From assembly GCA_029211065.1 (NCBI GenBank), contig JARGFK010000014.1, positions 1 through 60,283 of the forward strand: a stretch of 60,283 nt of DNA, in the 5' to 3' direction. The notes under the pieces are model-generated. The model was not told where the DNA came from. It saw only the letters and a list, made by a program, of their open reading frames with translations, and did no database searches. Shown one piece after another: positions 7,558-12,653 of the stretch. Position 1 is the stretch's first letter; every line of letters starts with the position of its first letter. The position numbers were made by a program, and so were the translations under genes. Origin of the DNA: Desulfobacterales bacterium (GTDB lineage Bacteria; Desulfobacterota; Desulfobacteria; Desulfobacterales; JARGFK01).

Positions 7558-7590
7558 GGGGCCGTGTGGGTTATCCACACGGCCCCGATG
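7558..7590. terminator. hairpin terminator between atpE and uvrA
   Basis: A perfect 12-base inverted repeat, GGGGCCGTGTGG (7558-7569) and CCACACGGCCCC (7575-7586), has a 5-base loop and is followed by GATGTTTT. It lies between two convergent genes and probably ends transcription of the atp operon, and possibly of uvrA from the other side. Confidence 0.85.
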
Positions 7591-7592
7591 TT

Positions 7593-10406
7593 TTATAAGT
7601 ATTTTCTTAAATATCGACCGGTATGGGAAGCATCGTTTCCGGCAAGTTCTTCCGGCGTGCCGCACCCCACCACATACCCCCCCGCATCCCCGCCTTCCGG
7701 CCCCAGGTCGATGATGTGGTCGGCGGATTTGATGACATCCATGTTATGCTCAATGACAATGACCGTATTGCCGGTGTCCACCAGCGTGTTCAGGACATTC
7801 AAAAGTTTCTGAATGTCGTCGGCATGCAGGCCGGTGGTCGGTTCATCCAATATATAGACCGTCCGGCCGGTGCTTCTTTTGCTTAATTCGCGTGACAGCT
7901 TGACGCGCTGGGCCTCTCCGCCCGACAATGTGGTGGCCGGCTGTCCCAGCCGGATATATCCGATACCGACATCCGCCAGGGTCGTCAACTTGACGCGGAT
8001 GGTGGGGATGTTTTTAAAAAACTGGAGGGACTGGTTGACGGTCATATCCAGAATGTCCGCAATGTTTTTACCCTTGTATCTGATCTCGAGGGTTTCACGA
8101 TTGTACCTTTTCCCCTGGCAGACATCGCAGACAACGTAAACATCCGGCAGAAAATGCATTTCAATTTTTATGATGCCGTCGCCGCTGCAGGCTTCGCAGC
8201 GGCCGCCCTTGACATTAAAACTGAAACGACCGGCTTTGTAACCGCGCATGCGGGCTTCGGGTGTCTTCGCAAAAAGTTCCCGGAAGTGGGTAAACACACC
8301 GGTATACGTCCCGGGGTTTGATCGCGGTGTCCGGCCGATGGGGGACTGGTCGATGTTGACAATTTTATCGATATGCTCAATTCCGGCAATGGATTGATAT
8401 TTTCCAACGGGAACGCGGGCGTGGTAGAGGCGCTGGGAAAGGACCCGAAAAAGGGTTTCCAGCAACAGGGTTGATTTTCCCGAACCGGACACGCCGGTGA
8501 TGCAGACAAAGAGGCCCAGGGGAAACACGACATCGATGTTTTTAAGATTGTTTTCCGCGGCTCCCAGCAGGACGAGCTTTTGCTGCGAGCCGGAACGACG
8601 CCTGGCAGGGATTTCAATCCGTTTGCGACCGGAAAGATATTGACCGGTCAATGATTTCTCGCAGCGCATCAACTGGGCCGGTATCCCTGAAAAAACCACT
8701 TCGCCGCCCAGCATTCCTGCGCCGGGTCCCATATCCACAACATGGTCGGCTGCACGAACAGTTTCTTCATCGTGTTCGACGACCATGACGGTATTGCCGA
8801 GGGCCCGCATCTGCATCAGGGTTTTCAAGAGCCGCTGGTTGTCGCGCTGATGAAGACCGATACTGGGTTCGTCCAGAACATACAACACGCCGGTCAATTT
8901 TGATCCGATCTGGGTGGCCAGCCGGATGCGCTGGCTCTCTCCGCCGGAAAGGGTGTAGGCCGAGCGGTCAAGGGTCAAATAGTTGAGCCCCACGTTTTCA
9001 AGAAACGTCAGTCGTTCAATAACTTCTTTCAAGATCCGTGAGGCAATAATTTTTTTTTGGCCGCTTAACGTCAGGCTGTTAAAAAAAGTGTGGGCCGACG
9101 CTACCGATAGCGCAGTGATTTCAAATATTCGCCGGCCGCCGACCTGGACTGCGCTGCTGATCCGGTTGAGCCGGGAGCTGTTGCATTCCGGACAGATACG
9201 AAAGTTCATGAACCGCCGGATTTCATCGCGGGACTGGTGGGAGTCGGTTTCGAGATAGCGTCTTTCAAGTTTCGGCAGGATTCCTTCAAAGGGCTTTCGA
9301 TAGGTGTAGCGGCGGTTATTGCGCTCAAAATAATAGGTGATTTCTTCTTGACTTGAGCCGTATAAGAGCACCTGTCTGAATCGTTCCGGAAGATCTTTGT
9401 AGGGGGTATAAATATCCACGCCGTAGTGGCGTGTGAGGGCTTCTAAAAATTCGACAAAGTGAACGGAATTTCGGTTGGCCCAAAGGGCGATTGCCCCATC
9501 CCGCAGGGAAAGTTCGGTATTGGGAACGATCAATCCCGGGTCAAACTCCGTGGTTGAACCCAACCCGTCGCATTTTGGACAGGCGCCCTGGGGAGAGTTG
9601 AAAGAAAAGCTGGCCGGCGTCAATTCGGGGAAACTGATGCCGCAATCAATACAGGCCGCTTTTTCGCTGAAAAGATAGGACCCTTTTCCAACGACATCCA
9701 CCCTAAGGATTCCATCTGACCGGGAAAGAGCCAATTCAAGAGAATCCGCCAGGCGATTCCTGATGGATTCCTTAACGATCAGCCGATCCACAACGACGTC
9801 TATGGTATGCTTTTTGTTTTTATCAAGCCGGCCGACGGATTCAAGTTCCAACATCTCACCATCTATCCGGACGCGGGCAAAACCCTCCTTTTTAAGCTGT
9901 TTGAAGAGCGCTTCGTGCGACCCCTTTTGGTCGGTTACCAGCGGGGCCAGGATGATGACCTTGTCGCCCGAACCCAGCGCCATAACCTTGTCGACTATCT
10001 GGTCTATGCTTTGCGATGTTATCTCCCGGCCGCAACGATAACAATGCGGCGATCCGACCCGGGCAAAGAGCAAACGTAAATAATCGTATATTTCCGTAAC
10101 GGTTCCCACTGTTGAGCGCGGGTTATGGCTGGCTGTTTTTTGCTCTATCGCGATGGCTGGCGAAAGGCCGTCAATCGAATCGACGTCCGGCTTTTCCATT
10201 CTTTCCAAGAACTGGCGCGCGTATGTTGAGAGCGACTCGACATAGCGGCGCTGTCCTTCGGCATAAAGGGTGTCAAAGGCCAGGGTTGACTTGCCGGACC
10301 CCGAAAGCCCTGTTACAACAATGAGTTTGTTGCGCGGCAGTTCAATATCAATGTTTTTCAGATTGTGCTGCCTGGCACCCCGAATGATGATGGCTTCAGA
10401 TTCCAT
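7593..10406 (-). CDS. uvrA: excinuclease ABC subunit A
   Basis: A 937-residue UvrA, the damage-recognition ATPase of nucleotide excision repair. Visible features: first Walker A GLSGSGKS (about residues 33-40); a zinc module CIDCG...CPKCDG near 255; first ABC signature [11 protein letters not shown]; second Walker A GVSGSGKS near 635; a zinc module CEAC...CDVCQG near 740; second signature [11 protein letters not shown] near 825; and the Walker [11 protein letters not shown]. The frame opens 26 codons further upstream, but the family begins at [18 protein letters not shown], so the ATG at 10406 is chosen. It stands alone and converges with the atp operon. Confidence 0.97.
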
Positions 10407-10491
10407 AAAGTGATCATTTCCCGACAACGCCGGTGGATGGGCGCGACTGAATAAAATATTGCCCAGGGACGCCCCATCCGGCATATGTCAT

Positions 10492-10596
10492 TATACCGCT
10501 TTCCATAATAAAGTTCCGAAACAATGAATTGCGGTATAAGCGGTTGTAGAAAAAAACGTTGGGATAACGGAACGTTTTTTTGACAACCGCTGTATA
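10492..10596. repeat. 105-base structured repeat, copy 1 (left of the dnaA-like gene)
   Basis: Begins TATACCGCTTTCC and ends GACAACCGCTGTATA. The first part can fold through TACCGC...GCGGTA. The second part is a long hairpin with arms GCGGTTGTAGAAAAAAACGT and its near-complement around loop GGGATAACGG. A second copy lies at 12550-12653 in the same orientation, with about four differences over the first 98 bases. The shared arm also resembles the ends of a degenerate element at 23642-23923. Probably a non-autonomous inverted-repeat element. Confidence 0.85.
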
Positions 10597-11137
10597 AGAC
10601 GGCAAAATTAAATCGAAAAATTCATCATACTACAGAAACCCGGTTTTTTTTCAAATAAAATCATATTGATTTAGATTTGCAGTAAAGGGCTGCATCGGAC
10701 CAACTTTAAACAGACGCTCTGAAATTAATTAGAAAATATTAGATAATAAGAGATAATGGTAGAAAATAAGAGATATTTTGATAAGGCATAATTGTCAAGA
10801 TTCTAAGCAGAAGCGTGGATATGCCTAAAATGTTTAAAGAAATAGGATCTTTCCCGAAAGGGTTCATTCCGTAGCGATTGCAGGCCGGTTTAGTTATATA
10901 TCAAATAAAAACAAAGAGATAAAAATTGTTCATAACTCGTTTGCAAATAAACTTTAACCCCTATTTTTTCGGTTTGACACCCGCGGGTCAATGCCATAAA
11001 AGATAACCAGTTTTTGGGGGGACAGTTTTTTCATAATCCGAGATAACTCTGTCAAACCGTTTGGTCTTGTTGCAATTTTTCCAATTATCTCTTCAATAAC
11101 AACACCTTATTTTCATTAACGTCGATTTTTTTTATTT
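10597..11137. promoter_or_regulatory. AT-rich region with repeated TTATCTCTT motifs; candidate origin or DnaA-binding region
   Basis: No gene lies here. The stretch is AT-rich (notably 10600-10800 and 10900-10960). The 9-mer TTATCTCTT occurs exactly three times: complement at 10748-10756, complement at 10914-10922, and direct at 11085-11093. Close variants occur at 10768-10776 (one mismatch), as TTATCTCGG on the complement at 11038-11046, and partly at 10741 and 11000. The motif shares TTATC with the classical DnaA box TTATCCACA, which I did not find here. Its position just before a divergent dnaA homologue suggests binding sites for that protein, acting in autoregulation or as an origin. This is inference. 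Confidence 0.5.
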
Positions 11138-12478
11138 ATGGAAGCTATCTGGCAAGAAGCCAAAAATGTTTTAAAAGAACAAATTCCACGCCACAGCTTC
11201 AGCATGTGGATTGAACCCATGGAGTTTGAAAAAGACAAGCCGGGCGGTCTGGTGTTGACCTGCCCGAATTTGTTTTCTAAAAAACGGGTTCTTGATCAGT
11301 ACGGGGCCTTGATCGAGCAGGAAATGGCTCGGATTTCCGGCAATCCCTGCCGGCTTTTTATTACTGTGTCCGGCAGAAACGGAGATTCAAAATCAAAACC
11401 GGAGGAAGAACGTCAACTGCCGCTTCCCCACCTGAACCTGCAGCCCCACAGCGGGCGCCTGCTGCGGAAAGATTTTACCTTTGACCAGTTTGTTGTCGGG
11501 GATAATAATGATTTTGCCTATACAGCGGCACTTTCTCTGGCTTCACACAAAAATTCGCACCAAAACTCCCTGTTTCTCTTATCCAAGACCGGTATGGGGA
11601 AGAGTCATCTCTCCCAGGCCGTGGGCCATTCCATTTTATCTGAAACCCCGTCCGAGCGGGTCTATTATATCACCTCGGAAGACTTCACCAATGAAATGAT
11701 TCATGCCCTGCGGCATGACGTCCTTGACAGGTTCAAAGAAAAATACAGAAAGCGCTGCGACGTGTTGCTGCTGGAGGATATCCATTTCCTGAGCGGAAAG
11801 GTGGGCACCCAAACCGAGCTCGCATTAACCCTGGATTGTCTGCTGGATGCCAATAAAAAATTAATTTTCACCAGCTGTTATTTGCCGGCCGACATCCCGA
11901 AAATGAATGAGCAGTTGAGTTCACGGCTGTCCTGCAGCCTGATTTCAGCCATTGATCCGCCGGATTTCAGGACACGGGTCCGGATTTTAGAAAAAAAAGC
12001 CAAGCTAAATGGATATGAGATGCCGGACGATGTTAAAAGTTACCTGGCAAGCGAGCTTTCAGATAATGTCCGGCAGCTTGAAAGCGGCCTGATCGGCGTG
12101 ACCGCCAAATCTTCTCTCTTGGGTGCGCCCATTGATTTGGGCCTTGCCAGAAGCGTTGTCAAAAATATTGCCCGGCAGAGCAAAAATATTACCATTGATG
12201 TCATCAAAAAATTGGTGTGCAGGGAGTTTAACATTTCCATCGGCGATATCGTTTCACGGTCCCGCAAACAGACCGTTGTCCGGCCGCGGCATATCGCCAT
12301 GTTTTTGTCCCGTCGATATACGGATTCTCCGCTGCAGGAGATCGGGCGTAGTTTCAACCGCTATCACGCCACAGCTCTTCATGCCATTGGGGTGGTGGAA
12401 CGTGAATTAAGGCAAAGCGTTGCCATGCGCCGGCAGGTAGAATTTATAAGCAATAAACTTGAAGCCGGAAAGTTTTAA
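11138..12478 (+). CDS. dnaA: divergent DnaA replication initiator homologue
   Basis: 446 residues with the full DnaA layout: N-terminal domain I (1-80), short linker, AAA+ domain III (about 108-345) and C-terminal DNA-binding domain IV (350-446). The Walker A is SKTGMGKS (149-156), lacking the first Gly of the usual form, and Walker B is LLLEDIHFLSG, with Glu where most have Asp. In domain IV, SRKQTVVRPRHIAMFLSRR is canonical, but the box-contacting loop usually reading GGRDHTTV is NRYHATA (407-413). It is one residue shorter, with Tyr for Asp and Ala for Thr at base-contacting positions. That implies altered box preference. dnaN is not adjacent; neighbours are uvrA and suhB. It may be the lineage's main initiator or a paralogue. 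Confidence 0.88.
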   Translation: MEAIWQEAKNVLKEQIPRHSFSMWIEPMEFEKDKPGGLVLTCPNLFSKKRVLDQYGALIEQEMARISGNPCRLFITVSGRNGDSKSKPEEERQLPLPHLNLQPHSGRLLRKDFTFDQFVVGDNNDFAYTAALSLASHKNSHQNSLFLLSKTGMGKSHLSQAVGHSILSETPSERVYYITSEDFTNEMIHALRHDVLDRFKEKYRKRCDVLLLEDIHFLSGKVGTQTELALTLDCLLDANKKLIFTSCYLPADIPKMNEQLSSRLSCSLISAIDPPDFRTRVRILEKKAKLNGYEMPDDVKSYLASELSDNVRQLESGLIGVTAKSSLLGAPIDLGLARSVVKNIARQSKNITIDVIKKLVCREFNISIGDIVSRSRKQTVVRPRHIAMFLSRRYTDSPLQEIGRSFNRYHATALHAIGVVERELRQSVAMRRQVEFISNKLEAGKF

Positions 12479-12549: not shown

Positions 12550-12653
12550 TATACCGCTTTCCATAATCAAGTTCCGAAACGATGAATTGCGGTATAAGCG
12601 GTTGTAGAAAAAAACGTTGGGATAACGGAACGGTTTTGTGACAACCGCTATAT
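12550..12653. repeat. 105-base structured repeat, copy 2 (right of the dnaA-like gene)
   Basis: Direct copy of the element at 10492-10596. The first 79 bases differ at two positions. The distal hairpin arm differs a little more (AACGGTTTTGTGAC for AACGTTTTTTTGAC). The copy sits in the gap between the dnaA-like gene and suhB, so the two copies bracket dnaA and its upstream region. Confidence 0.85.

Follow-up and report, generated by a model that had tools for sequence, protein, structure and literature searches.

What does a short word repeated upstream of dnaA represent: the binding site of an unusual initiator, an origin of replication, or something else? The question arises in a window of 60,283 nucleotides (the whole stretch of DNA that was analyzed), which is one contig of the 4.94-Mb draft genome of a Desulfobacterales bacterium. 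The first-pass annotation had proposed that the 9-mer TTATCTCTT, repeated upstream of dnaA, is a new DnaA box, co-evolved with an altered DnaA, at a candidate origin. The dnaA gene (11138..12478, + strand) encodes a DnaA of 446 amino acids (TIGR00362, 403.4 bits for a cut-off of 343.9), the sole full-length DnaA of the genome according to PF08299 and protein searches, and its closest relatives are in the Desulfobacterales. The divergent neighbor is uvrA (7593..10484, - strand; NF001503, 1533 bits), where the match begins at residue 29 and the real start probably lies about 28 codons inside the open reading frame. The interval containing the repeats is inside the 650-bp gap between the two genes. 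A 104-bp near-identical repeat (95%) is found on both sides of the dnaA unit (10492-10595 and 12550-12653); it is partly an inverted repeat itself and resembles a REP-like element or a small mobile element. We collected 110 dnaA loci of Desulfobacterales, aligned the 50 close upstream regions, and used 93 upstream regions for word counts. The E-values and shuffles given below take loci as independent, ignoring their shared ancestry.

The three exact copies of TTATCTCTT, on both strands, are where they had been reported: copy 1 at 10748..10756 and copy 2 at 10914..10922 (both on the - strand), and copy 3 at 11085..11093 (+ strand), in the dnaA leader. The near-copies were also confirmed, with one mismatch in ATATCTCTT (10768..10776, - strand) and TTATCTTTT (10998..11006, - strand) and two mismatches at 10738, 10783, 10837, and 11038, the last being TTATCTCGG (11038..11046, - strand). 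The interval has no TTATCCACA, as had been noted, and the single one of the window is at 7571. All exact copies of TTATCTCTT in the window are in this interval (3, for 0.29 expected from shuffles). There are 36 copies in the 4.94 Mb of the genome, so that three within 353 bp are a real local excess, and among these 36 we found no other dense cluster, the only other close pair being in contig C71. None of 2000 dinucleotide shuffles of the region gave three copies of TTATCTCTT. Since this word was chosen after looking at the sequence, a fairer comparison is with any 9-mer, and three copies of one or another are reached in 79 of the 2000 shuffles (4%) of this AT-rich region; the expectation of 0.003 put forward initially did not account for this choice. 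Hence, clustering alone is modest evidence, and conservation has to decide.

Across the 93 Desulfobacterales dnaA upstream regions, TTATCTCTT occurs five times, and four of these occurrences are at the position and strand of copy 1 (loci L022, L098, L026, and L040), which means that copy 1 alone has been inherited in this form. When all 9-mers of the upstream region are ranked by conservation, copy 1 is at the 86th percentile, the copy at 10768 at the 75th, and copy 2, which is 4 bp from the conserved box TTATGAACA, at the 73rd, with only its GATA part falling within a conserved block. The neighborhood of TTATCTCGG is at the 63rd percentile and copy 3 is unconserved (17th). Copies 2 and 3 look incidental. 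Relative to the canonical box TTWTNCACA, TTATCTCTT has mismatches at positions 6 to 9. The repeat is thus real, and its identification as the DnaA box is not supported by these comparisons.

Copy 1 is part of a larger element. It spans units 2 and 3, and ATATCTCTT, exactly 20 bp away, spans units 4 and 5, of a helically phased array of five decamers, AGAAAATATT AGATAATAAG AGATAATGGT AGAAAATAAG AGATATTTTG (10731..10780, + strand), for which the consensus in relatives is AGAWWWTNRR with a period of 10. Tandem Repeats Finder independently reported a period of 10 with 4.1 copies at 10728-10768. In the 50 aligned relatives, AG[AG] recurs at lags 10 (0.53) and 20 (0.49), no other lag in the range 5-19 exceeding 0.12. 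In-phase runs of at least three units are present in 25 of these 50 close relatives (0.3 in shuffles), in 11 of 49 more distant ones (0.5), and in 7 of 19 other Desulfobacterota (0.2); runs of at least four are present in 14 of the 50 (0.0 in shuffles). The periodicity and the conserved in-phase runs indicate that the conserved unit is the decamer, and the recurrence of TTATCTCTT is mostly explained by the joints between units, where the decamer reads AAGAGATAA. The distance between the array and the start codon is mostly 360-430 bp in close relatives. The window's array is AT-rich and adjacent to box-like blocks, its T-rich strand contains TTATT and CTCTTATT, and its core is AGAWWW, with AGATCT itself absent.

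The remainder of the upstream region is also structured. The blocks most strongly kept in the 50 close upstream regions are a distal A-rich block, TGGATATGCTTAAAAT, GGTTGTATTTA, AATTGTTNATAACTT, GGTTTGACA, and AAACCGTTTGAT. Among the most conserved words is GGTTTGACA, on which we base a putative dnaA promoter (10974..11002, + strand) made of a -35 TTGACA (10974-10979), a 17-nt spacer, and a -10-like TAAAAG (10997-11002) that is overlapped by TTATCTTTT. A consensus scanner did not list this promoter because its -10 hexamer is weak. A near-canonical box, ATATCCACG (10814..10822, - strand, 90th conservation percentile), is part of the conserved block CGTGGATATGCC, which reads TGTGGATATGC in relatives. 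A second conserved box-like site, TTATGAACA (10927..10935, - strand), is close to the putative promoter; it is at the 97th percentile among upstream 9-mers (scored one base to the left, at 10926-10934) and is the predicted DnaA box of the lineage, TTWTNAACA. The conserved block is lost or replaced in L093, the locus with the closest dnaA by protein (68%), where the upstream region is unrelated and carries a long imperfect inverted repeat.

The motif TTWTNAACA, or TTATNAACA, differs from the canonical box only by a C to A change at position 6, and therefore does not fit the standard consensus. It has 69 sites in 47 of the 93 upstream regions, when 6.0 would be expected, even if these are not 69 independent events, since many of the sites are orthologous. 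Under the same conditions TTATCCACA is nearly absent (2 sites), TTATNCACA has 7 sites, and the z-score of TTATNAACA is 28 versus 6 for TTATCTCTT. The counts of TTATNNACA words were 28 for TTATTAACA, 23 for TTATCAACA, 9-11 for TTATGAACA, and 9 for TTATAAACA. A profile changing one position at a time revealed the degeneracy of the standard box (W at position 3, N at position 5) together with A at position 6. The motif extends to the 19 upstream regions of other Desulfobacterota, with 8 sites for less than one expected, including 6 of TTATCAACA (0.2 expected) and zero of TTATCCACA. We found no cluster of TTATCCACA in genomes G000, G010, G048, and G053. Taken across the Desulfobacterales, the binding site of DnaA looks like TTATNAACA. 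The DnaA boxes characterized to date include TTATCCACA, TGATCCACA, TCATTCACA, TTGTCCACA, and the Thermotoga maritima AAACCTACCACC (PMC4285127, Table 1). The motif found here shares with them the length of nine, the TTAT 5' half, a free position 5, a tolerant position 3, and the ACA end, whereas every 9-mer in that table has C at position 6 instead of A. Epsilonproteobacteria offer another case of a lineage-specific box shift tied to substitutions in domain IV (core TTCAC, PMC5043019); there, however, T is fixed at position 5 and C is the rule at position 6, while here it is position 6 that changes.

Two other arrangements of these words were observed. In locus L318 (G050 C123:1475-1494), an exact tandem TTATCAACA-AG-TTATTAACA is found about 330 bp upstream of dnaA, with the two words head to tail at a spacing of 11 bp, as in DnaA arrays. 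One relative (L319 and G048 C1/C2) has more than 25 dispersed triples TTATAAACA-TT-TTATCAATA-AG-TTATGAACA, in which box-like 9-mers are spaced by 11 bp; this family could titrate DnaA or be the end of a transposon.

The DnaA protein has changed as well. Aligned with the Bacillus subtilis DnaA (8btg), the domain IV loop of the window's protein reads FN-RYHATALHA versus FGGRDHTTVIHA, and it is one residue shorter than the standard recognition loop FGGRDHTTVxHA. Among the residues that contact the box (listed in PMC7561715), P423Q, D433Y, and T435A have changed and the equivalents of R399, H434, and H439 are kept, so that the standard set is incomplete. In E. coli DnaA, Arg399 reads the TTA end and the helix reads TnCACA (PMC5742627). 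All readable Desulfobacterales homologs have this altered loop type. Other Desulfobacterota have loops such as NRNHAT, NRDHAT, NRNHST, and similar ones, from which it follows that D433Y belongs mainly to this order, and that the change at T435 and the shorter loop are more widespread, as is the TTATCAACA box. The changes of loop and of position 6 agree with co-evolution, without being proof of it. The idea of an altered initiator with a co-evolved altered box thus holds for the loop, altered throughout the order, and for the presence of an altered box-like motif, but the box would be TTATNAACA and not TTATCTCTT.

Taken together, these elements make it fairly likely that dnaA has its control region in this interval, with the array, the near-canonical box, the lineage box, and a sigma-70-like promoter with its leader, and that the interval is not oriC. 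DnaA would bind TTWTNAACA sites and thereby regulate its own gene. As the window region has a single exact TTWTNAACA (10927-10935), an autoregulatory cluster is weak here; 1-mismatch counts do not discriminate in AT-rich DNA, and our argument thus uses exact boxes only. The five 10-bp units would present identical faces on one side of the helix, and the phased array could be a series of weak sites along which copies of a protein line up next to each other. This protein may be ATP-DnaA or a regulator of direct repeats. We include ATP-DnaA because the AGAWWW core resembles AGATCT, the 6-mer bound by ATP-DnaA in E. coli, where it is active in the promoter of dnaA (PMC8203912). That promoter is also the precedent for autoregulation by DnaA through a 9-mer plus AGATCT sites, and DnaA acts on its own promoter in other bacteria too (PMC8203912). 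Both systems have an initiator box and several short sites starting with AGA before dnaA, with a promoter nearby. They differ in that the predicted box is here TTWTNAACA instead of TTATCCACA, and in that the short sites are in a strict 10-bp tandem array.

The array might instead be the operator of a different regulator, of the OmpR/PhoB type or DNA-bending, that recognizes 10-bp direct repeats and controls dnaA, in which case DnaA would not bind the array. Strict 10-bp phasing is typical of the direct-repeat operators of winged-helix regulators, and the array is both strictly phased and far from the promoter, at a distance of about 190-240 bp upstream of the -35 in the window. We find this somewhat unlikely, given that we identified no candidate regulator and that the AGAWWW core also resembles the 6-mer of ATP-DnaA (PMC8203912).

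Could the region nevertheless be the chromosomal origin, with the array as unwinding element and ATATCCACG and TTATGAACA as adjoining DnaA sites? The order AT-rich array, box-like blocks, and dnaA is conserved across genera, and the deposited genomes of Desulfoluna and Desulfosarcina are numbered from dnaA. Like the 13-mers of the E. coli unwinding element (GATCTnTTnTTTT, PMC5742627), the array is AT-rich and repeated, with TTATT on a T-rich strand, but its period is 10 instead of 13, it lacks GATC, and it does not coincide with a skew origin. This likeness means that it may be a former or secondary origin. The interval also has just one exact TTWTNAACA, and not the several boxes expected in an oriC.

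The strand skew argues against an origin at this place. The GC skew of the window is positive in 20 of 20 bins of 3 kb, on both sides of dnaA (with just 10.7 kb on the left). Among 47 loci, the third-position skews to the left and right of the gap have the same sign in most (r=+0.71), and the mean strand term remains positive on either side (around +0.07 and +0.04) once gene orientation is taken into account. An origin would invert the skew; by this measure the region is thus not the origin, neither in the window nor in most of the 47 relatives. Relative G010 (one contig of 4,455,399 bp; 80 sampled stretches) has two clean skew arms, the minimum being at 2.1-3.1 kb. That this switch can be seen at the 5-kb scale indicates that a local skew test can work. 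The dnaA gene of this genome is at 1.2317 Mb, mid-replichore, about 1.23 Mb from the switch, and its upstream region matches the conserved profile (E=1e-18). Hence, the block is retained even where the origin is elsewhere; the full profile matched only dnaA in this genome, and not the skew origin. An AT-rich gap at the G010 skew minimum (L147:2047-2680) has TTATGAACA, ATATCCACA, and an AT-rich tract, and is an oriC candidate.

For Desulfoluna limicola we searched for strand-marker patterns with a G-rich 9-mer, which switches strand twice, at 4.65-5.03 and at 1.6-2.05 Mb. The score of this arrangement is 53, for a maximum of 35 in permutations and a best value of 37 with the origin at dnaA. As dnaA is at position 1, the switch at 4.65-5.03 Mb is about 1.2-1.6 Mb away, and the skew origin is thus more than 1.2 Mb from dnaA in these two complete relatives. 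The three genome copies of TTGTTCATAACTTNT are all at 4.817-4.842 Mb in D. limicola, where an intergenic gap at around 4.817 Mb (L313:1200-1520) has five exact TTWTNAACA in 300 bp, including a TTATGCACA-AG-TTATGAACA tandem. This cluster is denser than that of dnaA and lies inside the switch interval; across 1.96 Mb of G010 and G053, the number of exact TTWTNAACA per 300 bp never exceeds two. We regard this gap as a good oriC candidate, and its cluster is evidence, separate from that at dnaA, in favor of TTWTNAACA as the box.

The exception is G048, the only genome compatible with an origin at dnaA, since the gene is inside a broad skew-switch interval (3.0-3.6 Mb). Its skew is coarse and its repeat family, with more than 25 copies, makes TTWTNAACA clusters of up to five, so we did not use it as proof. 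Genome G053 was discarded for skew, as its single "contig" consists of pieces linked by stretches of N and has no visible arms, and strand-biased octamers were discarded as markers because they were mostly a repeat of G010. rRNA operons were likewise discarded as markers of fork direction, the search having missed them in three of five genomes. In Desulfosarcina widdelii (G300 C1:6914140-6921103), a 16S rRNA gene seems to be broken into pieces separated by about 5 kb, which may be an insertion or two partly scored operons. The gene next to the skew minimum of G010 did not lead to the oriC of the window's genome, as its neighborhood is not conserved and no box cluster is present in L309. Overall, we judge an origin upstream of dnaA to be improbable.

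Finally, that TTATCTCTT is itself the lineage's DnaA box is hardly credible: it would account for the three exact copies with further near-copies, and its 5' TTATC agrees with the kept equivalent of Arg399 and an altered helix reading the 3' half, yet the same loop is found order-wide with only the five occurrences described above, copy 3 is unconserved, the genome has no second dense cluster, no copy was seen in the skew-origin gap of D. limicola, and TTATNAACA outscores it.

Our preferred reading, a dnaA control region, can be extended to the Desulfobacterota as a whole, where the position-6 box TTWTNAACA would have co-evolved with a shortened and substituted loop, and dnaA would be controlled by a phased array, through a filament of DnaA or a partner, away from oriC. 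We put forward this broader scenario tentatively, as one that may well not hold in full. The phased array would then be a conserved dnaA control element of a kind for which we found no description in the literature. If the scenario is true, initiator and box would provide a natural case of joint change at a base that is kept by the 9-mer boxes tabulated in PMC4285127. For this large order of sulfate-reducing bacteria, it would also mean that the origin is put in the wrong place by origin finders seeking TTATCCACA beside dnaA, and likewise by genome records whose numbering starts at dnaA.
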